Below, one piece after another: positions 14,849 through 61,021 of a stretch of DNA of 64,000 nt. The DNA is from a virus, in IMG/VR virus record IMGVR_UViG_3300035211_000097, positions 31,703 to 95,702 of that record, one strand, 5' to 3'. Position numbers and translations under genes: made by a program. Each line of letters opens with the position of its first letter. Within the stretch, counting starts at the first letter, position 1. The notes under the pieces were generated by a model. That model ran no database searches and was not told the DNA's origin. It worked only from the letters and a program-made list of their open reading frames with translations.

Positions 14849-15631
14849 GTGAATGCTATTGATCTGTGTAATAAATCAGTAAACAAAAAAGCAGTTAACA
14901 TTTACGGTGAGAACTATGAAGCAGTTGTCGGGCAGGTAGAATTTACTCCTGAGCTGGTAATAGATGAATCGAAAGATTATAACTGCGGTGCTTTTTGTAA
15001 TGAGCTGGAATATGCCCGACTGGTCGCTACTTCCTACACAGAATCTATATCTATTGACGGAGCAGAGAACGGTGAGCTTGATTTGCTCGTAGACTCTTTT
15101 GTTAAACTGGAAAGGTTGATTTTGTACGAGAATGATGATGATTACCGGAACCGGTTTAAAGCTCTGGTTGTACAGAACAATATACCAGCATGGACAACAC
15201 GTACTGCTATTATGAACGCTCTGGGCTACTTTTTGCCGATAGAAAATATCTTTATCTGGGAGCCTTTCGATACACATGATTATTATTTTGAAGTACGGCT
15301 GAAGGGCTTGGAAGTTTTTGACGCTGATACTGCTTTTGTGGATCAGAATTATTTTGATAATTGTTTCATAGGCGGTGCCGGGGTTGGTAAAGCTAAAATA
15401 TTTGCTGATGATATTTTACCACGGATCAGAGCTGCTGGTATCCAGCATAATGTTGTGATTGTGGATAATTCATCTGAAACTATTTTCTCAGATGCATTCT
15501 TGTTGTCTACAAGAATACCTATATTGTCTGATGCAAATATTTTATGTATCAGCACAGACACAATCCTGTCAGACGCTGTGGTAATCGCTCTGGGAACAGA
15601 TACTATTACATCGGATGCAACGATAACATAA
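14849..15631 (+). CDS. Baseplate wedge / tail protein I-like protein
   Basis: 260 residues; GTG start with AGGTG upstream, three bases after baseplate J stops. In contractile phages the gene after J usually encodes tail protein I or a gp7-like wedge that carries the fibres. The last 50 residues contain an imperfect repeat (SDAFLLSTRI, SDANILCISTD, SDAVVIALGTD), probably stacked beta strands serving as the fibre attachment. Function is inferred from order. Confidence 0.55.
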   Translation: MNAIDLCNKSVNKKAVNIYGENYEAVVGQVEFTPELVIDESKDYNCGAFCNELEYARLVATSYTESISIDGAENGELDLLVDSFVKLERLILYENDDDYRNRFKALVVQNNIPAWTTRTAIMNALGYFLPIENIFIWEPFDTHDYYFEVRLKGLEVFDADTAFVDQNYFDNCFIGGAGVGKAKIFADDILPRIRAAGIQHNVVIVDNSSETIFSDAFLLSTRIPILSDANILCISTDTILSDAVVIALGTDTITSDATIT

Positions 15632-15640
15632 GGATTTTAT

Positions 15641-17464
15641 ATGAAGTTTAACGAGGGAAAAGGGTTATATACATTAAATGTTCTGACAGATGAACAGGTG
15701 ACCAAGAAGGACTTGGACGGCTTTGTGGTGTCAAAGTATAAAAATGCCAACTTTCACCTCACAGCGATAGCACAGCGAGGGCTCGTGGCGAATTACAGGC
15801 AGGAGAGGATTACCGGGGTATGCTTCACCGGGGTACATTGTGTACCGTACATATCCGGGCTTACTATTACCATATCTGCCGGGTGTGTAATGAGCTTTCT
15901 GGGTAGATATGTGACAAGCGATTACTGGGGATATTTGAACGCACCCGGTGAGAGCTTTTTCGTTATTCTTACCGACACGACTGCTTCTTTTGCTACTGCT
16001 GATCTTACATCTGACAGATATGATACCGTACAGGTTCGTCCGGTAATCACTTCTTCAATAGCTAAAGAGCGTGACTTTTTAAATCCGTTCGATCTGTCTA
16101 TCTCTCCGACAACAATCGACACAAAAAGAAGCGTTACTTTCGAGGTGAGTGTAATTACAGGTACGCCGGGTGCAGGTGTGGCTCCGGCTACAGTAGAGGG
16201 GTATATCAAGATCGCTGAGGTTAAGATACCAGCGAATGCTACCGGTTTGACGGCTACTGAAGTGTTCGGAATACGTGATTGTAACTTGTGGACTACAGAA
16301 GAAAACAGCATGCACTATCTGAATGATTTTCTTTTGAATGAACACTCAAAAAGTTCATATCAGGCCAGATATAATCAACAGAGATTTTTGACTATACCGA
16401 GTGCTTCAGCACCTACAGGTATGGATATTCGTGCAGGTGTTCCACGGAAAAACATAGCATATTCCAAGCAGCTGGGAATTTATTTATTTCCTTATGTCAG
16501 TACAGTTTCTAATCAGGGAATTCTTAAATCACCGAATATGCTGTATTGGAGAACAGATCACACGAATACACCTACTCCGGGGTCTGATACTTACGGCACG
16601 GTATTCTGGGATGATAGCCTTGAATTATTTATAGCTGCTGGTATTAATGGTACCACAGGATATATACATACTTCTCCGGGAGGGACTATATGGACACAGA
16701 GATTGTCAATTACAGTAGACTCTGGGTCTACTCCGAGCGAGATTATCCGGGTACATAAAGAGGGTGTTGTAGCCTGTGGCTTTGTTGTGAGTGGAGGCGT
16801 TAATCTGTACTCATCTATTAACGGAACTTCGTGGAGTCTGGAAGCCTCTGCAATTGTTAACTCAGACGGACATTGCAGGCTGATAAGTAATGAAAGAACA
16901 GGGACAGTAATATGCCTTGGCCGAAAAAGCACAGGTGGTGATTATCTGGCCATTTGTTATACCACTATTGATGCATGGCAGAATATATCAAGTAATTTGC
17001 CGTTGTATTCAGTGTTTAGTGGATCGGCTACTTACGTGAGATACTGTGATATTGCTTACAATAAATATCTGGATTTGTATGTGATTGCTGGATATTATGA
17101 TGTAGGTGGTAATGTTTATCCGTGTATGATTTATTCACATGATGGTGAATTCTGGGGAATTTCTAATATGGAGAATTCACCTTCTGCGTTTACTTCATTA
17201 GAAATGATTGTGGTATCTATTGACGGAGGTTTTGTCTGTTATTCTATATCCAATTTAACTGTCATGGGCGGTATTTGGAAATCAGCTACAGGTATTGACT
17301 GGGAAAATGTGGACGATGAAATGACCACAAGGCTGGAAGGAATAAAAGACTCTACATATACTTTTGGAGTTGATGATATTTTAATCTGTGAATGCAATCA
17401 CAATGAAGTAACCGGGGTGTTTATGATTGACTCTGGTACAATGCAGGAAGCATGGTTTATATAG
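15641..17464 (+). CDS. Tail fibre / receptor-binding protein 1 with propeller-like repeats
   Basis: 607 residues; ATG with AGGA upstream. First of three tandem paralogues. Residues 1-230 form a shared anchor region containing TPGAGVAPATVEGYIKIAEV and LWTTEENSMHYLNDF. The remainder holds repeated strands of the type SPGGTIWTQ, SINGTSWSLEA, SHDGEFWGIS, SATGIDWENV, which resemble BNR/sialidase-type beta-propeller blades. Such domains commonly bind or cleave surface glycans. No catalytic residues can be assigned. Confidence 0.72.
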   Translation: MKFNEGKGLYTLNVLTDEQVTKKDLDGFVVSKYKNANFHLTAIAQRGLVANYRQERITGVCFTGVHCVPYISGLTITISAGCVMSFLGRYVTSDYWGYLNAPGESFFVILTDTTASFATADLTSDRYDTVQVRPVITSSIAKERDFLNPFDLSISPTTIDTKRSVTFEVSVITGTPGAGVAPATVEGYIKIAEVKIPANATGLTATEVFGIRDCNLWTTEENSMHYLNDFLLNEHSKSSYQARYNQQRFLTIPSASAPTGMDIRAGVPRKNIAYSKQLGIYLFPYVSTVSNQGILKSPNMLYWRTDHTNTPTPGSDTYGTVFWDDSLELFIAAGINGTTGYIHTSPGGTIWTQRLSITVDSGSTPSEIIRVHKEGVVACGFVVSGGVNLYSSINGTSWSLEASAIVNSDGHCRLISNERTGTVICLGRKSTGGDYLAICYTTIDAWQNISSNLPLYSVFSGSATYVRYCDIAYNKYLDLYVIAGYYDVGGNVYPCMIYSHDGEFWGISNMENSPSAFTSLEMIVVSIDGGFVCYSISNLTVMGGIWKSATGIDWENVDDEMTTRLEGIKDSTYTFGVDDILICECNHNEVTGVFMIDSGTMQEAWFI

Positions 17465-22031: not shown

Positions 22032-22055
22032 GAAATTATAGTCTCTTTTATCCCT

Positions 22056-22096
22056 GCCGTGAGTGATGATCTGCCGTTACTCACGGCTCTTTTTTT
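22056..22096 (+). terminator. Rho-independent terminator of the structural operon
   Basis: GCCGTGAGT (22056-22064) pairs perfectly with ACTCACGGC (22079-22087) and is followed by TCTTTTTTT. It lies 25 bases after the last gene of the late block and just before a promoter, so it separates the structural and regulatory transcription units. Confidence 0.92.
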
Positions 22097-22101
22097 GATG
22101 C

Positions 22102-22135
22102 TTGACAAAGATAAATAACTGTAGTAAAGTTACTA
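22102..22135 (+). promoter_or_regulatory. Sigma70-type promoter with overlapping palindrome (sigma gene control region)
   Basis: TTGACA at 22102-22107 and TAAAGT at 22125-22130 are 17 bases apart. A perfect inverted repeat, AGTAA-AG-TTACT (22123-22134), covers the -10 region and the sequence continues as a partly repeated AT-rich stretch (ATTAGTAAAATTA). A repressor bound there would block initiation. It would drive the sigma-like gene starting at 22164. Confidence 0.6.
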
Positions 22136-22163
22136 TAACATTAGTAAAATTAAAGGAAGGGAT

Positions 22164-41043: not shown

Positions 41044-41674
41044 CTACCGTACATATCAAAAACCACAGACTGTTGATACTGCCAAGTATACGGATAAACA
41101 GGCGCAGGCGATAACCGGTTTTTATAATCCTGAAGAGGTTGTAGATTTATTTGAGCGGTTTTCTTTTGATAGTAGGCAAATAGCCTTTTGTTTGGAAACT
41201 GCTTTAGGCTATCCCTCTGTTTCAAAGTTGATAAAAAAATTGGGGATATCAGACTGGACATATTATAAGTGGAAGCATGATCCTAAAATAATACAGTGCG
41301 TTGATGCATTGAAAAGAAATCGTAGATTGTTTGAAATGGCTACTTATGACAATTTGCGTAATAGGATGTATCAGTCTCTCCATGAGTTGCTGGATTATAA
41401 AGTTACCTCTGCTAATTTTGCTTCCAAGAAAGAACTTCTGGTGTTTATCCATAAATTATTGGAAGGAGGTCAGCCTACAAAGAAGACATTACGGGTGGCT
41501 TATCAGGAAGAGCCGGTTGATCCTTATGGCGTAGAAAGTGCGACAGAGAGAGATGTCACGCCGTCTGATAGATTGCGTCCTGAGGATATAACCCCGGATA
41601 CTTTAAATGATTTACGAAAACAGTTGGTAGAAAAAATAGACACTCTTGAGGTATTGCATGACGACAGCGTCTGA
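40952..41674 (+). CDS. Probable small terminase subunit
   Basis: The frame is open from ATG 40952 (240 residues), but the first part overlaps the previous gene and a TTG at 41009 may be the real start. Residues about 60-125 contain a helix-turn-helix-like stretch (SVSKLIKKLGISDWTYYKWK), as expected for a DNA-recognising TerS, followed by helical sequence and an acidic tail. It directly precedes the large terminase. Assignment is by position and HTH. Confidence 0.6.
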   Translation: MMGVIVQTSEKSSKQNEKSLQRKSLLKRVNDYRTYQKPQTVDTAKYTDKQAQAITGFYNPEEVVDLFERFSFDSRQIAFCLETALGYPSVSKLIKKLGISDWTYYKWKHDPKIIQCVDALKRNRRLFEMATYDNLRNRMYQSLHELLDYKVTSANFASKKELLVFIHKLLEGGQPTKKTLRVAYQEEPVDPYGVESATERDVTPSDRLRPEDITPDTLNDLRKQLVEKIDTLEVLHDDSV

Positions 41675-43679
41675 CAGGATGTCTGAGTATATTGAGTTGA
41701 AAAAGTTATTGCGCAGGTATGCAGTTGCTGAGAAAAAGATTAGTATTGGCTACCCTGCATATAATTGGGCCTTGAATCATCACCGGAATTCTAAGCTGGA
41801 ACCAATGACTTTTGAAGATGCGTGGTTTTTGCTGCCATTATATAAAAATATAGGAAAGTGGGAGCAGTTTGTAGTTCAGAAGTCTGTTCAGTGTGGGCTC
41901 TCTGAACTTTTTATTATTCAGTCACATTATGAAGCATCTTTGGGAATGTCGGTTATGTATGTTCTGCCTAAATATGAATTGCGTAACCGTTTTGTAAATA
42001 ATCGAATATATAAGCTACATAAGAAAGTACCATGGTATACAAAGCTGGTAGCGCAGGCTGGTACTTCTGTACACAGAACTTCGTTGATGCATTTTGGCAG
42101 GGGTACTTTGATTTATGTCGGGTCGAATGTTGAAGATGAATTTATTGAAGTGCCTGTGGATTCTGCCTATGTTGATGAGAAAGACAGGTGCAATCATAAG
42201 AATTTATTGATGCTGCCCGACAGGTATAGTGCATCCAAGCATAAGTTTCATAGGGAAATTTCTAATCCTACTGTAGATAAGTATGGGATCAATGCCCGAT
42301 ATCGTGAAAGCTCACAGGGTCTGTGGAATTATAAATGTGATCATTGTGGTCATTATTTTACACCTGATTTTTTTAAGCACGTTGTTCGGGAGGTTGGTGA
42401 TCGACAATTTGAAGTTATCGATCCTGCTTTTGATCTTGACTTGTACCGTAAGAAAGACAGAAACACGGATGTTCGGGTGATCTGTGATAAATGTGAAAGG
42501 CCAGTTAATCGTTTAATGAAAGGTGAGTGGGTACATGGCTATCCTACTCGTGAGTGGATAGGTGTTCTGGTTAGTAAAATATTTTCCCGGAATAATACTC
42601 TGTATGATTTGGTAGTAAAATGGGAAGATGGGAAAGATAACGAGTATAAACGGCAGGTGTTTTTTAACAGTGATCTGGGTCTTACTTATTCGGGAGAAGG
42701 TAATCAGATTACTGAAGGAATGATGGCTGAGTGTGCTGTCAGATATTCTTTTCCCGTACGACAGGTAGACTCTGTTGATACTTTGCTGATGGGTGTGGAT
42801 GTGGGTGCTGTTCTTAATTATGTGATTCGCAGGCGGGTTAAGGTTGATACAAAAGTGAAATTACAGTTGATCGAGTTGGGTACAGTTCCCTCTTTTACTG
42901 CTCTGGGAGATGTAATCAGGAAGTGGAAGCCGAAACGGGTTGTGGTAGATGCGCAGCCTGAAATCCATAAGATCATGGAGCTTAAGGCAGATTTTCCCGG
43001 TAAGGTTTTCAGTGCGAGGTTTGCACAGGGTACTACAGCCTTGTCTTATAATAAACAACGGCGTGAGTATTCCATGGATAGGACAGCTTCTCTTGATTAC
43101 GTTCTGGAATACTTTACAACAAAAACATACTTGTTACCGTTGAATTTTCGGGACATTTCGGGAGGTACATATAAGTCGCAGATGATTGCCAGCAGCCGTA
43201 TTTTAGATACAAATGAAGAGCATCCTGAGAAGTCCCGGTTTGACTGGGTACATACTGATCCCGATCATTATTTTTTGGCCGAGGCTTATTTGGTTATGGC
43301 ACATCTTAGTCTACCGATGCATGATCTTTTTGAATTTTTTGAAAAAGAGGTTGAAGTTCAGAGGCAGACAAATGCATATGACAAGGCTAAATTTATAGAC
43401 GCTGCGGATCGGGAAGCTGTAGCAGAAGCAATGCGCATAACTCCACAGGTTTTTTTGGATGGTGTCAGGAGACAGGATGCTGTTAAGAAAGATACCTTGA
43501 AGCCGAGAGTTGATGAAAGGGAAATTCGTCGGGCTATTGATTTCTTTTATAAACAGCAAGGTTATGTGGATTTAAAATTGTGTGCTAATATGTGTCATGA
43601 ACATGAAGACGATGTGAAACGATGGTTGAAAATAAAGGGATTCAGTGAAAGTAACATCAAAGGCCAGTATATCAAGTGA
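41658..43679 (+). CDS. Large terminase subunit (packaging ATPase/nuclease)
   Basis: ATG at 41658 is chosen because GAGG is seven bases upstream. 673 residues. A Walker A-like VVQKSVQCGLSEL (about 71-83), Walker B with catalytic acid DSAYVDEKDR (about 167-176), two CxxC pairs (CDHC, CDKC) forming a zinc insertion, and a RNase-H-like nuclease beginning LLMGVDVGA (about 377) with VVVDAQPE identify a terminase of the gpA-like group. It cuts and pumps DNA into the prohead through the portal, whose gene lies about 15 kb away. Confidence 0.85.
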   Translation: MTTASDRMSEYIELKKLLRRYAVAEKKISIGYPAYNWALNHHRNSKLEPMTFEDAWFLLPLYKNIGKWEQFVVQKSVQCGLSELFIIQSHYEASLGMSVMYVLPKYELRNRFVNNRIYKLHKKVPWYTKLVAQAGTSVHRTSLMHFGRGTLIYVGSNVEDEFIEVPVDSAYVDEKDRCNHKNLLMLPDRYSASKHKFHREISNPTVDKYGINARYRESSQGLWNYKCDHCGHYFTPDFFKHVVREVGDRQFEVIDPAFDLDLYRKKDRNTDVRVICDKCERPVNRLMKGEWVHGYPTREWIGVLVSKIFSRNNTLYDLVVKWEDGKDNEYKRQVFFNSDLGLTYSGEGNQITEGMMAECAVRYSFPVRQVDSVDTLLMGVDVGAVLNYVIRRRVKVDTKVKLQLIELGTVPSFTALGDVIRKWKPKRVVVDAQPEIHKIMELKADFPGKVFSARFAQGTTALSYNKQRREYSMDRTASLDYVLEYFTTKTYLLPLNFRDISGGTYKSQMIASSRILDTNEEHPEKSRFDWVHTDPDHYFLAEAYLVMAHLSLPMHDLFEFFEKEVEVQRQTNAYDKAKFIDAADREAVAEAMRITPQVFLDGVRRQDAVKKDTLKPRVDEREIRRAIDFFYKQQGYVDLKLCANMCHEHEDDVKRWLKIKGFSESNIKGQYIK

Positions 43680-43977
43680 TCTTCTCTTTTGTTCTTACTG
43701 TGAATCGTGGCTCAAGAAGTCGGCTTTCAGTAACGGGTCACCTATCTGCAAAGTTTGTACCGATGTTTATTTACAAGTGGACAGTTATCGGGAACCTACT
43801 TATTCTACTATTTTAAATGGATATGTAAATTTATTTTTGGCTATCAGGGATCGGGCCATACTGGATCATGCGCAGGAAGATTTTGACAGTTATTGGATAT
43901 GGCAATTCTCTGATGTTTGGGATTCTCTCAGTTCTCTCTTCCGGTCTGACAATTCATATAAAATTTCTGATATTTAA
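43645..43977 (+). CDS. Small zinc-ribbon protein
   Basis: GTG start inside the end of the terminase gene; 110 residues. CSYC (about 17-20) and CKVC (about 35-38) make a four-cysteine zinc ribbon; the rest is helical and aromatic (DSYWIWQFSDVWDSL). No ribosome binding site is obvious, so translation may be coupled. Function unknown. Confidence 0.5.
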   Translation: MKVTSKASISSDLLFCSYCESWLKKSAFSNGSPICKVCTDVYLQVDSYREPTYSTILNGYVNLFLAIRDRAILDHAQEDFDSYWIWQFSDVWDSLSSLFRSDNSYKISDI

Positions 43978-44001
43978 ATTTAGGGACGATAAAGTAACAA
44001 T

Positions 44002-44030
44002 TTGACATATAACTTGACTCATGTTATAAT
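44002..44030 (+). promoter_or_regulatory. Consensus sigma70 promoter with extended -10 (leader 1)
   Basis: TTGACA (44002-44007), exactly 17 bases, TATAAT (44025-44030), with TG at the extended -10 position. This is the best housekeeping promoter in the window. About 66 bases around it (from AAATTTAGGGACGATAAAG to AGTATAAGTAAGGGA) are repeated almost unchanged at 45.6 kb. It should give strong early transcription of the small-gene island. Confidence 0.9.
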
Positions 44031-44036
44031 TAAGTA

Positions 44037-44215
44037 TAAGTAAGGGAAGGATATTTGACAGAGCAGGGAAAGGGAGTTCAGGGAACTGACTAAAGGATTG
44101 TCGGACTGAATGGATCGAGTACTGAAGTAGAGAAGGATGCATACCCTCCTATCTGATAACTTGATTGAAGTTATGAGACGGGAGAAACCCGAAGCAATAT
44201 TTTGGAGGTAGGCAA
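44037..44215 (+). ncRNA. Structured 5' leader 1 with anti-Shine-Dalgarno segment
   Basis: About 180 untranslated bases. A conserved block (GGAGTTCAGGGAACTGACTA at 44073 and TGTCGGACTGAATGGAT at 44099) is shared with leader 2; CTGAC can pair with GTCGG. GCATACCCTCC (44139-44149) is complementary, with one bulge and one mismatch, to GGAGGTAGGC (44204-44213), the ribosome binding site of the next gene. Between them are two hairpins: ATAACTT/AAGTTAT (44056-offset block at 44156-44174) and CGGG/CCCG (44179-44191). The arms differ in leader 2 but still pair. Confidence 0.65.
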
Positions 44216-44401
44216 ATGCATAAAGGAAGACTTGAGATGGCCAGAGAATATGGACGGAAAGCTTTTAAAGCAGGGAAGAAAAGAGTACCGGCATTGGACA
44301 ATAATTTGCCGAGATTTATGAAATATGATAATGCTAAATACGCCGTGGCTCTTCTGAAAGAATGGTTTACTGGATGGGATGAAATGAACATGGCTGATTA
44401 A
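44216..44401 (+). CDS. Small protein resembling ribosome modulation factor (RMF/CrpP-like)
   Basis: 61 residues; ATG with GGAGG at 44204. The pattern of basic N-terminus, EYGRKAFKAGKK, a proline, then a C-terminal WFTGWDEM is reminiscent of RMF and related small phage proteins (G-x-AG ... W-x-GW). RMF binds near the anti-Shine-Dalgarno end of 16S rRNA and dimerises ribosomes. Similarity is short and judged by eye. It is the first gene after the strong promoter and structured leader. Confidence 0.5.
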   Translation: MHKGRLEMAREYGRKAFKAGKKRVPALDNNLPRFMKYDNAKYAVALLKEWFTGWDEMNMAD

Positions 44402-44404
44402 AGA

Positions 44405-44456
44405 CTTTGTGGGTAGTTCTACGGAGCTACTTGCTGACTCTTTATACTTTGGAGGT
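44405..44456 (+). promoter_or_regulatory. Intergenic two-part UTR element, copy 1
   Basis: Starts three bases after the TAA stop: CTTTGTGGG, stem GTAGTTC/GAGCTAC closed by a TACG tetraloop, TTGCTGA, then GGAGGT just before the start of the next gene. Confidence 0.75.
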
Positions 44457-44463
44457 ATGTAAG

Positions 44464-44775
44464 ATGAAGAAAGACTTTTTTAAGGATTTCAGGTACGAAG
44501 ACAAAATTACAGACGTTGTCTCTGTTAAGATGAATACGGTTGTGGTTATGGTTGATGATCTTGAGATTACAGTACAGCTGGTTCCGGGTGGCGTAGGCCA
44601 TTACGATATCTGGGTTTCGTTCGGAAAGGGATATATCAGAAAGACTTATTACAGAAGAACGATGACGGAAGCCGATAGAGAATGGTTTATGGAATTCCGG
44701 GAAGTGTCTCTGGAAATACGTGATGAGAAAGCGACACATTTTTTCGATGACATTGAAAAACGGTTGTATGGGTAA
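44464..44775 (+). CDS. Hypothetical protein of the small-gene island
   Basis: ATG at 44464 follows GGAGGTATGTAAG; an ATG directly at the ribosome binding site is followed at once by a TAA and cannot be the start. 103 residues, beta-rich first half (VVSVKMNTVVVMVDDLEITV) and helical acidic C-terminus. No family recognised. Confidence 0.65.
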   Translation: MKKDFFKDFRYEDKITDVVSVKMNTVVVMVDDLEITVQLVPGGVGHYDIWVSFGKGYIRKTYYRRTMTEADREWFMEFREVSLEIRDEKATHFFDDIEKRLYG

Positions 44776-44778
44776 AGG

Positions 44779-44827
44779 CTTTGTGGACAGCTCTTCGGAG
44801 CTGCCTGCTGATTCTTTACTTGGAGGT
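44779..44827 (+). promoter_or_regulatory. Intergenic two-part UTR element, copy 2
   Basis: Three bases after TAA: CTTTGTGGA, perfect stem CAGCTC/GAGCTG with a stable TTCG tetraloop, outer GG/CC pairs, CTGCTGA, then GGAGGT. Confidence 0.75.
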
Positions 44828-44833
44828 ATTGAT

Positions 44834-45049
44834 ATGCAAACACAAACGGAATTTATAAATGACACTGGTTCCTCTGTGATTATGACAGTCACAGAGCGTG
44901 GAAAATACAGTACCCTTACTGTTGAGCATGAAGATTATGACGGACAGGGTGGGCCAGTACACGAGCAGGACGTACCTGCTGACGAGATAGATAAAGTCTG
45001 TCGGGAGTGGGTACGGGATTTGCTCGGCTTAAAGTTCAGACCAGTGTAA
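44834..45049 (+). CDS. Hypothetical small protein
   Basis: 71 residues; ATG seven bases after GGAGGT. Sequence MQTQTEFINDTGSSV then a beta-rich acidic domain and WVRDLLGLKF near the end. No family recognised. Flanked by repeat elements on both sides. Confidence 0.6.
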   Translation: MQTQTEFINDTGSSVIMTVTERGKYSTLTVEHEDYDGQGGPVHEQDVPADEIDKVCREWVRDLLGLKFRPV

Positions 45050-45052
45050 AAG

Positions 45053-45120
45053 TTTTGTGGACAGTCCTACGGGGCTGCCTGCTGAATCTTTATACTTTAT
45101 ATTATAAGAGATTGAGGAGG
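45053..45120 (+). promoter_or_regulatory. Intergenic two-part UTR element, copy 3
   Basis: Three bases after TAA: TTTTGTGGA, stem CAGTCC/GGGCTG with TACG loop, CTGCTGAATC, then a longer second hairpin (AATCT...AGATT) and GAGGAGG. Confidence 0.7.
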
Positions 45121-45126
45121 TCAGCG

Positions 45127-45357
45127 GTGATAGAATATTGGGATAATATTGATATAAAACTTATAAAAAAACCTAATATGTATGGATTGATATTTGAGGT
45201 AAACTCATTGGCTTATGATGAATTGGAGTTATACATCGGGGAGCTTATTGAGTTTGAAGGTCAAAAATATATGGTTAAAACAGTGAATCATCTTTCTTCA
45301 GAAAAAAGAGAAAGCAGGGTCTATATCGGTTCAAAACTTATATCTAAATCTCTTTGA
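45127..45357 (+). CDS. Hypothetical small protein
   Basis: GTG start at 45127, six bases after GGAGG. 76 residues with a beta-rich pattern (GLIFEVNSLAYDELELYIGE, KYMVKTVNHL) suggesting a small beta barrel. No family recognised. Confidence 0.55.
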   Translation: MIEYWDNIDIKLIKKPNMYGLIFEVNSLAYDELELYIGELIEFEGQKYMVKTVNHLSSEKRESRVYIGSKLISKSL

Positions 45358-45407
45358 ACGGAACACGGTATTTGAGTGTGGATCACTGCGAATATCTGGA
45401 TTAAAGA

Positions 45408-45456
45408 TTTTGTGGGTCGTCTATTGGACGGCTTGCTGAACCTTTAACGATGGAGG
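45408..45456 (+). promoter_or_regulatory. Intergenic two-part UTR element, copy 4
   Basis: TTTTGTGGG, stem GTCGTC/GGACGGC, TTGCTGAAC, then GGAGG. Here the element lies 50 bases after the previous stop rather than three; the extra 50 bases hold no visible feature. Confidence 0.65.
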
Positions 45457-45461
45457 GTTTT

Positions 45462-45581
45462 ATGATTGGTGTATGCATTGGTGTAGTATTTGTGGGATTG
45501 TTGATAACAGCTTTCCTACTGTACCGGAAAGATTTAAAAGAGTGTCAGGTGTATTTTGGAATCTACAAGTATAGAAAGTAA
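45462..45581 (+). CDS. 39-residue membrane protein
   Basis: ATG six bases after GGAGG. A single transmembrane segment (VCIGVVFVGLLITAFLLY) followed by a short basic tail ending YKYRK. The strong ribosome binding site and the UTR element in front argue that this very short gene is real. Function unknown. Confidence 0.6.
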   Translation: MIGVCIGVVFVGLLITAFLLYRKDLKECQVYFGIYKYRK

Positions 45582-45590
45582 GAAGTAAAA

Positions 45591-45612
45591 TGCAGGGCGT
45601 TCCTGCCCTGCA
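45591..45612 (+). terminator. Stem-loop before promoter copy 2 (weak terminator candidate)
   Basis: TGCAGGGC (45591-45598) pairs perfectly with GCCCTGCA (45605-45612). Only AAAATTT follows, so rho-independent termination on the + strand would be weak. Located between the end of one transcription unit and the second strong promoter. Confidence 0.5.
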
Positions 45613-45638
45613 AAATTTAGGGACGATAAAGTAACAAT

Positions 45639-45667
45639 TTTACATATAACTTGACTCATGTCATAAT
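45639..45667 (+). promoter_or_regulatory. Sigma70 promoter with extended -10 (leader 2)
   Basis: TTTACA (45639-45644), 17 bases, CATAAT (45662-45667), with TG at the extended position. It is a near-copy of the 44.0 kb promoter, slightly further from consensus in both boxes, so probably weaker. Confidence 0.85.
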
Positions 45668-45673
45668 AGAGTA

Positions 45674-45873
45674 TAAGTAAGGGAAAGGGAGATCAAACCT
45701 GAAGTACTTAAGGTCTTTGAAAGATGAAGGGGGAAGGAGTTCAGGGAACTGACTATGATGTCGGACTGAATGGATAAACCCCGGATAAGCGAAGGATGCA
45801 TACCCTCCTTTCAGAGAGTTTAGAAATGAACTTTCCGATGGGAGTAATCCCAAAAAAACCTTGGAGGTATGCT
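45674..45873 (+). ncRNA. Structured 5' leader 2 with anti-Shine-Dalgarno segment
   Basis: About 200 untranslated bases sharing the conserved blocks of leader 1 (45736-45755 and 45759-45775). GCATACCCTCC (45798-45808) pairs over ten base pairs with GGAGGTATGC (45863-45872), with one bulged C. Between them lie hairpins GAGAGTT/AACTTTC (45814-45835) and TGGGA/TCCCA (45839-45852). These occupy the same places as in leader 1 with different but still pairing arms. The likely role is control of translation by hiding the ribosome binding site. Confidence 0.7.
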
Positions 45874-46770
45874 ATGAAAGCTACTAAATCAAATCCCTTT
45901 TTTACAGTATCAAGAGAAGAACTTTACAGGAAGAACACTACAAACAAACCGGAAAACGGAAAGATGATCTATACAGGTTATGACAGCCTTTACCGGAAAG
46001 ACAACGGCAGACAGCTGGCAGTAGTTAGCAAACAGTATGAGGTTATTACTCATCGAGAAGCCGTTGACACAGCACACCACGCTCTGCGTGATGTGGGGAT
46101 AATGAACTTTAAATTTGAAAGTGAAGTATCCTATAGTGGTGCGCAGCTGTTTCACAAGATACAGTTTCCTGAATACAAGTTTAATCTTGATGACAACAAT
46201 GGTAAGTCACTGAGAGGTACCGCACTGGACTCTGGCAGTAAACTGGGTGAAGGTGCTGTTCCGCAGATCGTGGTCAAGAACACTTACGATGGAACATCCA
46301 GCTTGAATTTTACTTATGGTATTTTCAGATTGGTCTGTTCAAACGGCATGATGGTCGGCACACAGGTTGACAAGATTGCAGTTACCCATTCAGGTGAAAT
46401 TGATTTTGAGAGTATTGGTGATCGTATCATTGAAAATCTGGAAGCAACAATCGAAGGTGCTAAACGCAGTTACCAAAAGCTGAATGCTGAAGACGGTTTT
46501 GATCTGTTCAAACAGATCATGATTACAGATGCATGGCTCAGTAACCGCTACAATAACCTTGTGTTTGATATGCTTGAAAAACAGGTAACTGTAGAGTGGG
46601 ATAAAGACGAAGAAACCGACAAGCTCGTTCCTGTCGATGCTCGTCTTAAACAAGAGTTTTCAAAGTATGCACTGTGGTGTGTATTAACTGAAGTGGTAAC
46701 ACACAGAATCCACTCGGCACAGCACAGGGACAGGTTAAGTCGAAAGATTGCAAAGTCTTTCACTGCCTGA
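45874..46770 (+). CDS. DUF932-like protein
   Basis: ATG at 45874 follows GGAGGTATGCT. 298 residues. The segments QLAVVSKQYEVITHREA, FRLVCSNGMMVG and the helical C-terminal half with RIHSAQHRDRL match the DUF932 (phage/plasmid-like protein) family, widespread in phages and conjugative elements with no established function. It is the largest protein of the island and stands behind its own strong promoter and leader. Confidence 0.75.
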   Translation: MKATKSNPFFTVSREELYRKNTTNKPENGKMIYTGYDSLYRKDNGRQLAVVSKQYEVITHREAVDTAHHALRDVGIMNFKFESEVSYSGAQLFHKIQFPEYKFNLDDNNGKSLRGTALDSGSKLGEGAVPQIVVKNTYDGTSSLNFTYGIFRLVCSNGMMVGTQVDKIAVTHSGEIDFESIGDRIIENLEATIEGAKRSYQKLNAEDGFDLFKQIMITDAWLSNRYNNLVFDMLEKQVTVEWDKDEETDKLVPVDARLKQEFSKYALWCVLTEVVTHRIHSAQHRDRLSRKIAKSFTA

Positions 46771-46773
46771 TGG

Positions 46774-46838
46774 CTTTGTGGGCGGTTCCACGGAACCGCT
46801 TGCTGAACTCATCAGGGTTCTAAAAATACTTGGAGGTA
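46774..46838 (+). promoter_or_regulatory. Intergenic two-part UTR element, copy 5
   Basis: Three bases after TGA: CTTTGTGGG, perfect stem GCGGTTC/GAACCGC with CACG loop, TTGCTGAAC, second hairpin GAACTC/GGGTTC, then GGAGGTATG. Confidence 0.78.
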
Positions 46839-46844
46839 TGCCAG

Positions 46845-47153
46845 ATGAAAATTGAGAAAGGAACAATATTGAACTTTAGAGGATCATGGGGATCGGGAAT
46901 CGGATATCTTGTAATTCAGAAAGAAGGCGAGAGAGAAGAGATATCGGTACCATGTGAAAACGGTGCTACAGTCAGAGCGTTATCCAATTACGTAGACTGT
47001 ATTACTACTGGTCACGGCGTGGATGTGGACAAGATAAAAGGCATGGAAATATTCTACGCAATGGAAGGCTGGGGAACAATGGCCGGGCTCGTTCCTACCG
47101 AACATGCAACTCCTGAGATGTGGGATTTGTATGAGTCTGGTTACGAAGACTAA
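46845..47153 (+). CDS. Hypothetical protein of the small-gene island
   Basis: ATG after GGAGGTATGCCAG. 102 residues; a beta-rich N-terminal half (GTILNFRGSWGSGIGYLVIQ) and acidic C-terminus. No family recognised. Confidence 0.65.
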   Translation: MKIEKGTILNFRGSWGSGIGYLVIQKEGEREEISVPCENGATVRALSNYVDCITTGHGVDVDKIKGMEIFYAMEGWGTMAGLVPTEHATPEMWDLYESGYED

Positions 47154-47156
47154 GGG

Positions 47157-47208
47157 CTTTGTGGGTGGTTCCACTGGAACCACTTGCTGAACTTTTAGTT
47201 CAGGAGGT
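47157..47208 (+). promoter_or_regulatory. Intergenic two-part UTR element, copy 6
   Basis: Three bases after TAA: CTTTGTGGG, eight-base-pair stem GTGGTTCC/GGAACCAC, TTGCTGAAC, second hairpin GAAC/GTTC, then GGAGGTATG. Confidence 0.78.
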
Positions 47209-47215
47209 ATGACAG

Positions 47216-47545
47216 ATGGTACTTTTAACACAGGAAATTCTTAAAAGGATTCCGAGCATTGACGAGGATCGTGCGGTTGAACCGGACAGTGAAAAAAGAA
47301 TGGCGCATGCCAAGCTATTCACTCCCGATGCAAACTGGACATGGTACTTGATTGCTTATGATCCTGAAGAGGAACTGGCGTACGGTCTGGTAAAAGGATT
47401 CGAGGTAGAATTCGGTTACATCAGTATGGCAGAGATCAAGAATCTCAGGGGGCCGATGGGTCTGGCTGTTGAGCGTGACAGGAGCTTTACCAAGATGAAC
47501 GTGAAAGAGCTGTACGACAAAATCAAAGCTGGAAAGCATGTGTAG
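47216..47545 (+). CDS. DUF2958-like protein
   Basis: 109 residues; ATG after GGAGGTATGACAG. The order LLTQEILKRIPS, AKLFTPDANWTWYLIAYDP, GLVKGFEVEFGYISMAEI and GLAVERDRSF matches the DUF2958 family, small proteins common on mobile elements. Molecular function of the family is unknown. Confidence 0.8.
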   Translation: MVLLTQEILKRIPSIDEDRAVEPDSEKRMAHAKLFTPDANWTWYLIAYDPEEELAYGLVKGFEVEFGYISMAEIKNLRGPMGLAVERDRSFTKMNVKELYDKIKAGKHV

Positions 47546-47551
47546 CTTAAA

Positions 47552-47625
47552 ACCTTGGGGATGAGATTACGGTCTCATTCCTTGGGTGGTAAGACACTGA
47601 AAAATCTGAAATAACCTTGGAGGTA
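47552..47625 (+). promoter_or_regulatory. Divergent intergenic hairpin element, copy 7
   Basis: CTTGGGGATGAGA pairs with TCTCATTCC around a TTACGG loop; the CTTTGTGGG and CTGCTGAA boxes are replaced, but CTTGGAGGTATG before the next gene is kept. Probably a degenerate or differently specific copy. Confidence 0.55.
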
Positions 47626-47631
47626 TGTGAG

Positions 47632-47976
47632 ATGGGAATATTAAGAACAAATGATTGGGAGATGTTCAGGTATTCGTTATTCTGCGATATTCTTGAACAG
47701 CTCGGTGGATCAGAACCTACAGACGAAGATATTTGGGAACAGATGCGAGAGTCTGTAGAGGTACCATTGGCTGAGAATTACTATTATGATGAGGTGTTAG
47801 GCCGTATCAAAGCAAAGCTTGATGAGGAAGGCATTGAGTCAAGTTATTATGTTAATTCTCGGGATACTCATTTACACATCTATATTGATGGTTGTTCAGA
47901 AGAAGTTACCAGCATGTCAGAATTTGATGATATGTATGAACGGGCTAAAGCTGAACTTGACGATGTTGATGAGTAG
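47632..47976 (+). CDS. Hypothetical acidic protein
   Basis: ATG after GGAGGTATGTGAG. 114 residues, strongly acidic (LEQLGGSEPTDEDIWEQM, AKAELDDVDE). The sequence SSYYVNSRDTHLHIYIDGC is a likely beta hairpin. Acidic small proteins in phage early regions often mimic nucleic acid, but nothing here proves that. Confidence 0.6.
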   Translation: MGILRTNDWEMFRYSLFCDILEQLGGSEPTDEDIWEQMRESVEVPLAENYYYDEVLGRIKAKLDEEGIESSYYVNSRDTHLHIYIDGCSEEVTSMSEFDDMYERAKAELDDVDE

Positions 47977-48026
47977 GTTTTCTGAGCTGTCTATAGGGCA
48001 GCTTGGTGAATTTTAATGCTTGGAGG
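47977..48026 (+). promoter_or_regulatory. Divergent intergenic hairpin element, copy 8
   Basis: GTTTTCTGAG, stem AGCTGTC/GGCAGCT with TATAG loop, TTGGTGAA, then TTGGAGGTATG. It keeps the plan with altered boxes and begins directly after the TAG stop. Confidence 0.6.
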
Positions 48027-48034
48027 TATGTGAT

Positions 48035-48409
48035 ATGAAGAAAAGAAAAACAGCTGATGTGTATTATCAGACACCGCTACAATGGAAAGATTTACTGGGG
48101 GTATCAGTACGACAGCGTGAGAATCTTCAGTATGTGGTCAAGCTAAATGAAGTTGAACAGAAAGGCCGTTATAAGTTTGTCAGGTCGATAGATTATAGCT
48201 GGCTACCACAGACTAAACAAGAGGCTGATACTTTGGATGAAGTTTATCGGTTGATGCAGGGCGAGGTCTGGTCACCTAATGGGGAGGCCAGAGAGTTGAT
48301 TGAGTCTTTGAGACTTCACCATACATCTATGAGTGTAGGTGATGTGGTGAAACTTGCAGATGGTACTTTCTGGATACTTAATAGTATCGGCTGGGGGCGG
48401 TTGAGCTGA
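48035..48409 (+). CDS. YodL-like protein
   Basis: 124 residues; ATG after GGAGGTATGTGAT. The C-terminus (LHHTSMSVGDVVKLADGTFWILNSIGWGRL) matches the typical ending of YodL-like proteins of mobile elements (H-S-x-S-V-x-D-V). The N-terminal half is basic. Function of the family is unknown. Confidence 0.65.
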   Translation: MKKRKTADVYYQTPLQWKDLLGVSVRQRENLQYVVKLNEVEQKGRYKFVRSIDYSWLPQTKQEADTLDEVYRLMQGEVWSPNGEARELIESLRLHHTSMSVGDVVKLADGTFWILNSIGWGRLS

Positions 48410-48417
48410 AGCATAGG

Positions 48418-48478
48418 CTTTGTGGGTAGCCTATTGGGTTACCTGCTGAACCTTATGGTTCGAGAAAATTTTGGAGGT
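48418..48478 (+). promoter_or_regulatory. Intergenic two-part UTR element, copy 9
   Basis: Eight bases after TGA: CTTTGTGGG, stem GTAGCC/GGTTAC with outer GG/CC support, CTGCTGAAC, second hairpin GAACC/GGTTC, then GGAGGTATG. Confidence 0.78.
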
Positions 48479-48483
48479 ATGCC

Positions 48484-48864
48484 ATGGAATTAACAAGCAA
48501 GAATGTAGATGCTTTATTCAAAAAGTGTTTATATACCGAAGGTGAAGTTGTTGAAGGTCATATTCCGGTAGAAGGGGTTATAACAAGGGTCGGGTTTCAT
48601 CCGGGGCGTATTGAGGAAAACAAAGTTGAAATTGAAAACTTGTTAAATCAGCTTCCTGACAGTTTCAGTAAAAGCATGGGAGGTGGACATTCATTTCTTC
48701 AGGCATGTGTGGATAACAAAGGTAGACAGTGGGGTGAACATCGGAACATTGATCAGTTGCTGATGTTGGGTCTGGCAATAGGCAAGGCACACTACTGTAT
48801 AGAAAACCGGCAGGCATGGAGAGTCATGCCGGGAGGAATGCCTTATTTCTACATCGATGATTAA
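48484..48864 (+). CDS. Hypothetical protein of the small-gene island
   Basis: 126 residues; ATG directly after GGAGGTATGCC. Mixed alpha/beta sequence with a glycine-rich turn (SFSKSMGGGHSFLQACVDN) and a C-terminal MPGGMPYFYIDD. No family recognised. Confidence 0.65.
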   Translation: MELTSKNVDALFKKCLYTEGEVVEGHIPVEGVITRVGFHPGRIEENKVEIENLLNQLPDSFSKSMGGGHSFLQACVDNKGRQWGEHRNIDQLLMLGLAIGKAHYCIENRQAWRVMPGGMPYFYIDD

Positions 48865-48867
48865 CGG

Positions 48868-48932
48868 CTTTGTGGGTGGCCTGCTGGGTCACCTGCTGAA
48901 CTGTTAACCAGTTCAAAAAAATCTATGGAGGT
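48868..48932 (+). promoter_or_regulatory. Intergenic two-part UTR element, copy 10
   Basis: Three bases after TAA: CTTTGTGGG, stem GTGGCC/GGGTCAC, CTGCTGAAC, second hairpin GAACTG/CAGTTC, then GGAGGTATG. Confidence 0.78.
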
Positions 48933-48938
48933 ATGCCT

Positions 48939-49139
48939 ATGAGTGAAAAGGTGAAACCCACAATTTACATTGAGGAAGGTGAAAACGTATTCGGTATCTT
49001 TGGAAGGTTCCAGAGAGAGGCCCGGAAAAACGGCTGGTCGCAGGAAGATATTGACGAGGTTCTGGATAAGGCGAAAGCCGGGGACTATGAAAATGCTGTT
49101 GCTGTGATCAAGAAAAATGTGGAGGTCGAAGAGTTATGA
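48939..49139 (+). CDS. Small acidic protein
   Basis: ATG at 48939 is preferred over 48933 for spacing from GGAGG. 66 residues, helical; the segment NGWSQEDIDEVLDKAKAGDY has the look of a small helix-turn-helix or UBA-like bundle. No family recognised. Overlaps the next gene (ATGA). Confidence 0.6.
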   Translation: MSEKVKPTIYIEEGENVFGIFGRFQREARKNGWSQEDIDEVLDKAKAGDYENAVAVIKKNVEVEEL

Positions 49140-49447
49140 GAGTAGATATTGATTTCACAGATGTCGGGTACGGTATCCCGGATGTCGGGGAAACGTTCAG
49201 ACGTAAACGTGGTTACACGCTGTACTTACGTGTCGATACTCGGTACATAGAGGATTTGGAATTTGAAGACAAAAGAGGTCGGGGTGGTAAGGTCAGCATG
49301 GCAAAAACATTCGATATGGATCGCTATTTTTTTGGAGTACGGGTAGATACAGGTATTATCCATTACTTCAAAAAAGAGGACGCTTACAATTGTGTTGTAA
49401 TGCCTACCAAAGTGGTCATGGATATGGAGGCTATCGATGAAGGGTGA
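49136..49447 (+). CDS. Hypothetical protein
   Basis: 103 residues; ATG overlaps the previous stop, with GGAGG thirteen bases upstream. Beta-rich (YTLYLRVDTRYIEDLEFEDK, YFFGVRVDTGIIHYF). No family recognised. Confidence 0.6.
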   Translation: MRVDIDFTDVGYGIPDVGETFRRKRGYTLYLRVDTRYIEDLEFEDKRGRGGKVSMAKTFDMDRYFFGVRVDTGIIHYFKKEDAYNCVVMPTKVVMDMEAIDEG

Positions 49448-49583
49448 CACACTTGAAAGAATTCAGGCAGACCTGAAGGGCCTGAAAGAAAAAGTAAGGT
49501 TGGGCCAGCTGACTTATGAGGCTTACTGTATTCAAAAGGCGAAGGTCAAAAAACGACTGAGGGAATTTCAGGGTAAAGCCTAA
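49437..49583 (+). CDS. 48-residue basic helical protein
   Basis: ATG at 49437 with GGAGG six bases upstream, overlapping the previous stop. Sequence begins MKGDTLERIQADLKGLKEKV and continues as one long charged helix ending LREFQGKA. The regular spacing from its stop codon to the next UTR element (three bases) supports that it is translated. Confidence 0.6.
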   Translation: MKGDTLERIQADLKGLKEKVRLGQLTYEAYCIQKAKVKKRLREFQGKA

Positions 49584-49586
49584 AGG

Positions 49587-49650
49587 CTTTGTGGGCTATC
49601 TGCTGGGTGGCCTGCTGAATCTTTATGGTTCAATATTAAATCTTGGAGGT
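49587..49650 (+). promoter_or_regulatory. Intergenic two-part UTR element, copy 11
   Basis: Three bases after TAA: CTTTGTGGG, stem GGCTATC/GGGTGGCC (with G-T pairs), CTGCTGAATC, second hairpin GAATC/GGTTC, then GGAGGTATG. Confidence 0.75.
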
Positions 49651-49654
49651 ATGT

Positions 49655-50221
49655 ATGAGTTTAAATTGGAACAGTGAAAACTGTGTGGGATGGGAAGAAC
49701 TGCAAGAGAGTGCAAAGGAACGGAGCATTACTGATGCGATTATCTGGGCTTCTTGTGTGGTTGGTATTCCTGAGATCAAGGCAGATAACATAGTGGAATT
49801 CCACTATCGGAGTAATCTGTATGATGCGATTGCCGGGGCAAGAATGCATGACTTATTGCCTATGTCGAGCGATAATAAAAGTGATTGGGCTGTACCACGT
49901 CCGATTAAGGTAGATGATTTGCAAAAGAGGATCGGATTGATGACCAATGCGCCTGAGTTTACTACTCCACAGTTCTTTAAGAACTTACGGAAGATGTATG
50001 ATCGGGAAGTTGAGAAAAGTGATTTTCATCTCCGTGGTATACTTCGGGGAGACGAGCAGGCTGAGTTTCATAAGAAACAGGGTTGTCCCGGATGCTTTTA
50101 TGCTGATGAGAAAGCGATAGCGAGAAAGATGCCTTGTTGTACTTTCGGGCAAACGTGTACCAGTCCCCCACAATTTGACAAGGATGGAAAGTGTCTCACA
50201 AGGAAAGCGAGGGGCGTATGA
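49655..50221 (+). CDS. Hypothetical protein with C-terminal cysteine cluster
   Basis: 188 residues; ATG four bases after the GGAGGTATG motif begins its ATG, so 49655 is preferred to 49651. The C-terminal 50 residues contain CPGCFY, CCTFGQTC and KCL, a possible zinc or iron-sulphur site. The N-terminal part is mixed alpha/beta. No family recognised. Confidence 0.6.
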   Translation: MSLNWNSENCVGWEELQESAKERSITDAIIWASCVVGIPEIKADNIVEFHYRSNLYDAIAGARMHDLLPMSSDNKSDWAVPRPIKVDDLQKRIGLMTNAPEFTTPQFFKNLRKMYDREVEKSDFHLRGILRGDEQAEFHKKQGCPGCFYADEKAIARKMPCCTFGQTCTSPPQFDKDGKCLTRKARGV

Positions 50222-50385
50222 CTATCAAGGAAAAATGCCAGAGGGCATGTATGGCGATTGAGTACGTGAAAGAGTGGTTGGAGATTGTTGAAGAAGATGC
50301 TGGTAAAGACTTACTGCGTGTTGATGATGATAAAATGCTTGCAAATATTGAGGCTTATTTGACAAGCAGACCAACTACGAAGTAA
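50218..50385 (+). CDS. 55-residue helical protein
   Basis: ATG overlaps the previous stop (ATGA); GCGAGGGG lies upstream. Sequence begins MTIKEKCQRACMAIEYVKEW and is helical and acidic. No family recognised. Confidence 0.55.
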   Translation: MTIKEKCQRACMAIEYVKEWLEIVEEDAGKDLLRVDDDKMLANIEAYLTSRPTTK

Positions 50386-50388
50386 CAG

Positions 50389-50441
50389 CTTTGTGGGCTA
50401 TCCTCTGGGTAGCCTGCTGATCTGTTAAAGATCAATGGAGG
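50389..50441 (+). promoter_or_regulatory. Intergenic two-part UTR element, copy 12
   Basis: Three bases after TAA: CTTTGTGGG, eight-pair stem GGCTATCC/GGGTAGCC, TGCTGATC, second hairpin GATCT/AGATC, then GGAGGTG. Last copy of the series. Confidence 0.78.
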
Positions 50442-50446
50442 TGTTT

Positions 50447-50719: not shown

Positions 50720-50750
50720 TATCGTTATTATACATTCTGCCGTATAGTAT
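50717..50750 (+). promoter_or_regulatory. ECF-like bipartite promoter, copy B
   Basis: TAGTATCG (50717-50724) and CCGTATAG (50740-50747), 26 bases between the starts of TAGTA and TATAG, followed by TATAG again. It begins within the previous stop codon and would transcribe the structured region and the methyltransferase block. Confidence 0.62.
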
Positions 50751-50754
50751 AGTG

Positions 50755-51060
50755 AGTAATTCGATGTAAACTTTATCCGGGTCAGCCTGAGAAAGAGTTC
50801 ACTTTCATCTTAACCTGCCCTATGGTTCGGATCAAAGATTTGCATATCTCCAAAAAGGCACAGAAAGTGTATTCAGGTTTAAGGGCAGGTTATTTATTTT
50901 GGTTAATATCCGGGAGTTGGAGTAGGTGATGAGGGTTCGTCTTATACAGTATTGATCCCTACGGGGATGACGTAGACAGGCAGCCACCTTTTATGCTTGA
51001 CGCTTCCCTTGGTGTCTTCGCAGTGATGGGAAGATGCCCCTCCCTCCCGGATTCATATAT
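50755..51060 (+). ncRNA. Candidate structured RNA or long leader in a 353-base gene-free region
   Basis: No coding frame of note. TAACCTGCCCT (50811-50821) pairs perfectly with AGGGCAGGTTA (50882-50892). ATCCGGGAG (50908-50916) pairs perfectly with CTCCCGGAT (51044-51052), enclosing ATCCC-TACG-GGGAT (50955-50968, a UNCG-type hairpin) and CTTCCC/GGGAAG (51003-51033). It starts right after a promoter and ends 20 bases before a small gene. It could be a long regulatory leader or a free RNA. I do not recognise a known class. Confidence 0.6.
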
Positions 51061-51072
51061 AAAGAGGTGTAC

Positions 51073-52916: not shown

Positions 52917-53037
52917 GTATTGTGGACAGTGTGACAATTTTAAATCGTTTCGCTGTCCACATGACGGTAAGACTATAGGAAACGGAGTTCGTTACTATGA
53001 TATAGCAAAGGAATGCTTCAGGGAGTGTTATGACTGA
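52864..53037 (+). CDS. 57-residue cysteine-rich protein
   Basis: ATG at 52864 with AGGAAG upstream, overlapping the peptidase gene in another frame. After 17 residues come KYCGQCDNF, FRCPHDG and ECFRECYD: six cysteines arranged as a small zinc-binding domain. It links to the next gene by an overlapping stop/start. Confidence 0.55.
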   Translation: MKKIQLVTQSSIERKLPKYCGQCDNFKSFRCPHDGKTIGNGVRYYDIAKECFRECYD

Positions 53038-60900: not shown

Positions 60901-60912
60901 AGTTTGTATACT

Positions 60913-60941
60913 TTTACTCAAGGTATGGTATCTTGAGTAAA
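60913..60941. repeat. 10-bp inverted repeat upstream of promoter copy C
   Basis: TTTACTCAAG (60913-60922) and CTTGAGTAAA (60932-60941) are exact reverse complements around a 9-base spacer. There is no T tract, so it is more likely an operator or RNA hairpin than a terminator. It lies 10 bases before promoter copy C. Confidence 0.6.
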
Positions 60942-60950
60942 GGTATAAAG

Positions 60951-60984
60951 TAGTAACGCTTTTTATAGTCTTGTCGTATAGTAA
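60951..60984 (+). promoter_or_regulatory. ECF-like bipartite promoter, copy C
   Basis: TAGTAACG (60951-60958) and GTCGTATAG (60973-60981), again with 26 bases between TAGTA and TATAG starts. The downstream box lies in the stem and loop of a terminator hairpin. Confidence 0.58.
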
Positions 60985-61001
60985 TATGACAAGACTTTTT
61001 T
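60967..61001 (+). terminator. Rho-independent terminator overlapping promoter copy C
   Basis: AGTCTTGTC (60967-60975) pairs perfectly with GACAAGACT (60988-60996), followed by TTTTTTA. It should stop transcripts coming from the portal unit while the overlapping promoter starts the next unit. Confidence 0.8.
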
Positions 61002-61021
61002 ATTGTGTGGAGGAAATTACA

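Follow-up and report, generated by a model that had tools for sequence, protein, structure and literature searches.

Covarying intercistronic RNA stems with a base-paired stop codon in the early-type gene island of an uncultured tailed phage

The window analysed here is the 64,000-nucleotide stretch at positions 31703–95702 of a 95,702-base uncultured IMG/VR virus record (IMGVR_UViG_3300035211_000097), and all coordinates refer to this window. The virus is a tailed phage whose terminase large subunit is encoded at 41646–43679 and is directly followed by two transcription units of small early-type genes. Between 44.4 and 50.45 kb, this island carries 12 intercistronic copies of one element, 10 clear and two divergent, and there is strong support for a common RNA structure that acts across the whole island. 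The structure is a long irregular stem of about 21 pairs that takes in the stop codon of the preceding gene, which makes the twelve-copy element larger than a preliminary description from the sequence alone had it. With gene starts set by inspection, the element is found at 12 of the 12 non-overlapping gene junctions inside the two units and at none of the three overlapping ones, in keeping with the earlier statement that it lies between nearly all island genes. Each element is tentatively read as an intercistronic mRNA-processing signal similar to those of phages T7 and SP82.

Anatomy and covariation of the junction stem

The core of the element, as folded by RNAfold, is an 11-bp helix of the form GUGG-N6/7-loop-N6/7-YUGC in nearly all window copies, and each core is more stable than its own shuffles (z −2.6 to −4.9). 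These and the following folding predictions leave out proteins, ribosomes and modified bases. The flanking sequences CTTTGTGGG and CTGCTGAA form the two strands of the lower helix (UUUGUGG/YUGCUGA), which is kept in 10 of the 12 window copies, and the U.U and U.G oppositions are kept in all 12. The stem of 6–8 bp first reported is just the top third of the real structure, since below the core there is an irregular zone and then a basal helix of 6–8 bp that holds the stop codon of the upstream gene. On the 5′ side of this helix the stop codon, three bases and a pyrimidine pair with the bases after UGCUGA, as in UAACAG/CUGUUA of e12, UAACGG/CUGUUA of e10 and UAAGGG/CUUUUA of e6 (copies are numbered e1 to e12 in order). 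A UAA stop pairs with UUA and the copy with a UGA stop, e5, has UCA as the partner, its basal pairing being CCUGAUGG with CU(C)AUCAGG. Two to three nucleotides of the stop codon are paired in 24 of 29 evaluable copies and the identity of the partner covaries; in e4, e7 and e9 the in-frame stop is not inside the stem. The core begins three bases after the stop codon in eight of the 10 clear copies (exceptions e4 and e9), exactly as noted before, and this spacing is explained by the register of the basal helix containing the stop codon. The strong helix mostly starts 9–16 nucleotides after the stop, with a mode of 11. Stop-codon pairing that covaries with stop identity is unusual and provides a sharp, testable link from translation termination to RNA folding.

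Across 49 copies from six phages, the extended stem has a median of 25 helical levels and 21 pairs, and 41 of the 49 reach at least 20 levels, the size of an irregular two-turn hairpin of the T7 early type. These copies were gathered partly by eye and with a fold-energy filter, so that detection favours well-folded junctions; this bias affects the core and the stem length more than the flank swap test described below, which is not fully free of it either. An alternative fold is open to most copies: a second hairpin (H2) just upstream of the Shine-Dalgarno sequence (SD), in which the 3′ strand of the basal helix is paired with the bases downstream of it. Swapping of the H2 arms gives z=−6.1 for the 25 copies with enough sequence. 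H2 and the basal helix are mutually exclusive because the 5′ arm of H2 is shared with the basal helix. Core plus H2 is less stable than the extended stem, by 3.5 kcal/mol on average, so H2 is expected mainly after strand release. The preliminary description also listed a second hairpin, and a separate H2 is clear in 7–8 of the 12 window copies; e1, e2, e4 and e8 have a 3-bp version only, so H2 is common without being universal, and the long stem comes nearer to universality.

The pairing is maintained by covariation, as had been proposed from the upper arms alone. In the upper stem 70 of 72 positions pair, compared with a mean of 51.4 and a maximum of 66 when arms are swapped between copies (200,000 swaps). 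A 16-row alignment has 91.7% of its cells paired vs 78.4% after shuffling and 40–58% when slid, with a covariation score of 0.497 vs 0.209 (0/500 shuffles as high), and for the full 19-pair structure 93.6% are paired vs 84.9% shuffled and 35–62% slid. Arm swaps within phage groups, performed on the 49 copies, give z=−14.9 for the core arms and z=−7.9 for the flanks including the stop codon (0/50,000 each), and the flank covariation is individually significant in four of five phage groups. The window flanks reach −60.4 in their own combinations vs a mean of −25.2 and a best of −56.8 when swapped (0/100,000); e5, e9, e10 and e12 contribute most of this signal, two of them with a bulge in the helix. 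Chance pairing is ruled out by the arm-swap and column-shuffle tests. The window copies contain 49 G-U and only 2 A-C oppositions, so it is the sense-strand RNA that is selected. This asymmetry is explained by RNA only, and it makes DNA-level inverted repeats for gene shuffling, of the kind found in mobile cassettes such as PeSL of T4-type phages, highly improbable. Such repeats would account for the same kind of junction occurring with different gene sets and for the relic TAA of e4, which suggests gene replacement, but no high-scoring promoter lies inside the junctions.

A covariance model, as had been suggested, recovers 11 of the 12 copies when run over the whole record, with no other match there at E<1. 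A search of the 95.7-kb record for the combined pattern TTTGTGG..TGCTGA gives 11 occurrences, of which 10 lie inside the island; the other strand and the reversed-pattern control give none. By itself, CTTTGTGGG shows no enrichment (18 occurrences vs 13 expected when one mismatch is allowed).

All copies are on the plus strand. The first three are e1 (44397–44456), with its core from 44405, the stop codon at 44399–44401 and the SD GGAGG at 44451; e2 (44771–44827, core from 44779), with a UUCG loop, the stop at 44773–44775 and the SD at 44822; and e3 (45045–45121, core from 45053), with the stop at 45047–45049 and the SD at 45116. In e4 (45400–45456, core from 45408, SD 45452) a TAA at 45402–45404 lies at the three-base distance and pairs in the stem, yet it is not the stop of the gene at 45127–45357 and is either a relic or the end of a small open reading frame. 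The interval from that gene to e4 (45358–45404) ends in an open frame with this paired TAA and is possibly the remnant of a replaced gene. The stop of e5 (46766–46837, core from 46774, SD 46832) is UGA at 46768–46770 with the partner AUCA, and that of e6 (47149–47208, core from 47157, SD 47203) is at 47151–47153. The divergent e7 (47543–47624, core at 47553, SD 47619) keeps its lower strands paired as CUUGGGG/UCCUUGG and has a basal helix that begins right after the stop TAG at 47543–47545. The other divergent copy, e8 (47970–48027, core at 47978, SD 48022), follows the stop TAG at 47974–47976 and carries a double compensatory change, UUUCUGA/UUGGUGA. In e9 (48407–48478, core from 48418, SD 48473) the in-frame stop TGA at 48407–48409 is 8 nucleotides away and the basal helix uses CAUAGG. 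The last three are e10 (48860–48932, core from 48868, stop 48862–48864, SD 48927), which has a clear alternative H2, e11 (49579–49650, core from 49587, stop 49581–49583, SD 49645) and e12 (50381–50442, core from 50389, stop 50383–50385, SD 50437).

Relatives in other uncultured phages

Relatives were found through terminase relatives in IMG/VR and a scan for the MoxR-type ATPase; all are metagenomic and some are fragments. The same junction architecture with other sequences is present in at least five distant uncultured phages (L014, L021 with L061, L017, L071 and L073). The terminases of L014, L017 and L021 are 46–51% identical to that of the window phage; the route to L071 and L073 was the ATPase (68–69% to the query). 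Absence of the stems from homologous loci had been named in advance as evidence against a conserved structure; the stems are there in these phages, though seven loci of the terminase clade (L011, L013, L022, L024, L026, L027 and L028) have no recognisable element. The lower helix falls into several types, with CGUGG/UUGCG in L014 and L021, CUACGG/ACGC in L014 and L017, CG-GG/AA-CG in L071 and L073, and CACCUA/AGGGG in L017, L021, L071 and L073. The MoxR gene is 82% identical between L017 and L021, and in the junction after it the lower strands CGCAGAG/UAAUGCG are kept and the upper stem is wholly replaced yet paired. The type-2 copies of L071 and L073 (alignment A10) are too conserved for a covariation test. 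A strict type-1 pattern searched through all of IMG/VR returned three matches, all of them known copies, and a pattern match in L009 is a chance match. The extended SD varies among the window phage, L014, L017 and L021 (GGAGGTATG, GGAGGTGTG, GGAGGTTTG), and in many copies the bases upstream of it could close a small hairpin around the SD.

These comparisons bear on whether the element is the binding site of one regulatory protein, encoded by phage or host, through which translation or stability is governed for the whole island as a regulon. The conserved UUUGUGG/YUGCUGA and the invariant U.U and U.G of the window are what such a site would display, as are CGUGG/UUGCG in L014 and L021 and the GG/AA type internal loops of L071 and L073. 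The conserved part differs between phages, however, and even between copies of one phage, so that a single recognition sequence is improbable; the phage records contain no CsrA homologue, and Pfam recognised no RNA-binding domain among the island proteins tested. Judged by eye only, hairpins of the AUAC-UUGGAG-GUAU type, as bound by CsrA, could hold some of the SDs. A protein site is on the whole doubtful.

The island has no DNA-level match in cultured phage records, and the cultured terminase matches, among the best listed, show 21–24% identity, many of them from SPO1-like Staphylococcus and Bacillus phages. A search of Rfam 15 gave no matches above the gathering threshold and sub-threshold matches at chance level, which rules out a known RNA family. 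The structured-RNA family is apparently undescribed so far, and it is the dominant feature in how an early-type gene island is laid out in this group of uncultured phages. One further terminase relative (42%), L066, lies on a contig (PRDI01000110.1) binned as a Thorarchaeota genome, reflecting a binning error or an unusual host.

Leaders and neighbouring features

Each unit opens with a sigma-70 promoter and a leader of about 200 nucleotides, and high-scoring promoters are found only at these two leaders and none inside the junctions. Promoter P1 (44002–44030, plus strand) is TTGACA-17-TATAAT, matching 12/12 consensus positions with an extended −10, and P2 (45639–45667, plus strand) is TTTACA-17-CATAAT with 10/12. 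Leader 1 (44031–44215, plus strand) has a terminal irregular stem CUCCUAUCUGAUAACUU/AAGUUAUGAGACGGGAG, an alternative hairpin GGGAGAAACCC and the SD, which is the module without a stop codon. Leader 2 (45668–45873, plus strand) has a boxA-like GGTCTTTGAAAGA, an irregular stem CUCCUUUC...GAUGGGAG and GCAUACC/GGUAUGC pairing around the SD. Both end in an irregular stem (CUCC...GGGAG), an alternative hairpin GGGAG-N-CCC and the SD, and the module appears to end both window leaders. Leader 2 of L014 has the same layout with another sequence and no stop codon, and since the leaders lack a stop codon, this codon is not required for the module. The pairing across the SD is GCAUACC/GGUAUGC in the window leaders and CACACC/GGUGUG in L014, a covarying closing helix. 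The paired leaders of the window (43977–44215 and 45617–45873) and of L014 (about 12757–13064 and 15559–15859) share a consensus promoter, a boxA-like motif (GGTCTTTGAAAGA, GGTCTTTAACAGA) and a junction that closes across the SD, and look like a conserved regulatory leader in their own right. A trans-acting anti-SD RNA from the leader was considered, as GCATACCCTCC is complementary to GGAGGTATGC, and rejected because this segment more plausibly serves the leader itself, as its junction and stem strand.

The boxA-like motifs suggest antitermination in these operons, which would suit hairpins that stabilise the message or shield it from Rho, comparable to REP elements, guarding message ends or untranslated gaps without being cut. 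A stable hairpin at each non-overlapping junction also agrees with such a role, but it predicts neither the irregular zone, nor where the stop codon lies, nor the overlap with H2, and it is judged improbable. The elements are not intrinsic terminators either, as stated previously from the missing T tract, nor plain ribosome binding sites: a GC-rich hairpin followed by a T tract is absent, only e8 passes a loose scan, and that scan gives 6 hits in the region vs 4.4 expected. A search for tRNA or tmRNA likewise led to rejection of that reading of the elements.

The island genes at 45874–46770, 47216–47545 and 48035–48409 include those for a DUF932 protein (45874–46770), a DUF2958 protein and a protein with an HTSMSVGDV motif, the last being common to other phage contigs. 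No relatives of the proteins at 48484 and 45874 (DUF932) were found in IMG/VR. Outside the island, the intergenic gap at 60901–61021 has a very strong predicted structure (z about −7), and the gaps at 22032–22163 (z −3.8) and 52917–53029 (z −2.8) are also structured. Just past the island, about 350 bases at 50720–51072 hold no convincing gene and possibly contain inverted repeats.

Message processing, translational coupling and comparison with known systems

Protein binding, RNA processing and control of re-initiation had been left unranked as roles of a shared post-transcriptional signal; the signal as such is borne out by the structure, and the anatomy favours processing. This preference rests on the irregular two-turn stem at each non-overlapping junction, the apparent leader copy and the likeness to T7 RNase III sites, and the reading could well be correct though a firm assignment would be premature. 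The island transcript would fold at each non-overlapping junction into the 11-bp core, the irregular zone and the basal helix of 6–8 bp with the upstream stop. A double-strand endonuclease, most likely the host RNase III, would then cut in the irregular zone and convert the polycistronic message into short, single-gene units. The freed 3′ basal strand may refold into H2, presumably as a 5′ protector, and many downstream messages would thus receive a 5′ end composed of a hairpin, a short spacer and GGAGG.

Several observations weigh against this proposal. RNase III sites need no conserved sequence, and the conserved UUUGUGG/YUGCUGA (10/12) together with U.U/U.G (12/12) hints at an additional binding partner. 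The phage records contain no RNase III gene, and a host enzyme must be assumed. The long stem is not clearly present in the leaders of L014P1, L017 and L021. For L014 alone the basal-flank covariation is weak (p=0.15), and in the window the basal helix alone, in a fixed register without bulges, is modestly supported (83.3 vs 77.4% shuffled, 25/500) because most copies share similar strands of the UAA-AGG type. A simulated cut does not significantly raise SD accessibility of the intercistronic copies (0.45 to 0.51, p=0.07), and the proposal therefore does not extend to cutting as an activator of translation.

The main rival is a ribosome-sensing switch for translational coupling, which is more novel than processing and is considered unlikely; it stays in consideration because of the stop codon within the stem. 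The long stem would form when no ribosome reaches the upstream stop, and a terminating ribosome would open the basal helix and free its strand for H2, altering access to the next SD or helping the ribosome to reach it. The stop pairing and its covariation fit such a sensor, as does the mutual exclusion of H2, where present, and the basal helix. The start of the helix 9–16 nucleotides past the stop also approximates the mRNA-channel edge of a terminating ribosome, and placing a ribosome at the stop raises SD opening in 24 of the 49 copies and lowers it in 11. However, the predicted SD effect is weak and mixed, the module also occurs in leaders without a stop codon, e4, e7 and e9 have no in-frame stop in the stem, four window copies lack a real H2, and the stop spacing varies in other phages. 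It is similarly unlikely that the copies form a phage RNA-switch family in which the base-paired stop codon is part of the sensor and in which, at every operon junction, how the next cistron is translated or cleaved depends on translation of the one before it.

Processing can also be set against known systems. PeSL cassettes of T4-type phages carry promoters and terminators. They resemble the island in their recurrent intergenic hairpins between small early genes and differ in that the elements here have neither promoters nor terminators; a PeSL cassette was therefore rejected, its early promoters having no counterpart beyond the two leaders. The put RNA of HK022 also places two adjacent hairpins in a phage transcript, but it acts near promoters in antitermination and no Rfam family was matched here. 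The early RNA of the Bacillus phage SP82 is reportedly processed at RNase III sites; SP82 belongs to the SPO1 group, to which the terminase of the window phage is distantly similar. Translational coupling by RNA unfolding is described for rpmI-rplT and f1 VII-IX (PMC12548453). As there, a ribosome translating the upstream gene could unfold structure close to the next one, whereas the stem here has its anchor in the stop codon itself, is repeated at a dozen junctions and masks the SD inconsistently.

The closest likeness is to T7, whose early polycistronic mRNA is cut by RNase III at five sites into mono- and dicistronic mRNAs (PMC4858673), and where cleavage at the R1.1 stem is linked to maturation and protection (PMC8708148). 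The T7 early sites (R0.3, R0.5, R1, R1.1 and R1.3) are irregular two-turn hairpins before the first early gene and between cistrons, with a core helix of about 9–11 bp, an irregular zone and a basal helix. The island shares this placement, with elements at the 12 non-overlapping junctions and in the window leaders, and R0.3 precedes gene 0.3 as the leader stem precedes the first gene here. By the same level count R0.5 has 26 levels with 21 pairs and R1 has 22 with 18, vs the median of 25 and 21 here; this count was not reached by R1.1 and R1.3 in the stretches folded, which speaks against the parallel. In R0.5 the UGA stop of gene 0.4 (1431–1433) lies inside the basal helix, and in folded R1.1 the strand 3′ of the core is in an alternative downstream hairpin. 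The differences are that the island has 12 sites, one at every non-overlapping junction, vs five in the T7 early region, that the sequences differ, that here the stop is regularly inside the stem and an SD-adjacent alternative hairpin is frequent, and that cleavage, known for T7, is proposed here. If the elements are RNase III sites, they would show that a phage group distant from T7 cuts its messages in T7 style at almost all junctions.

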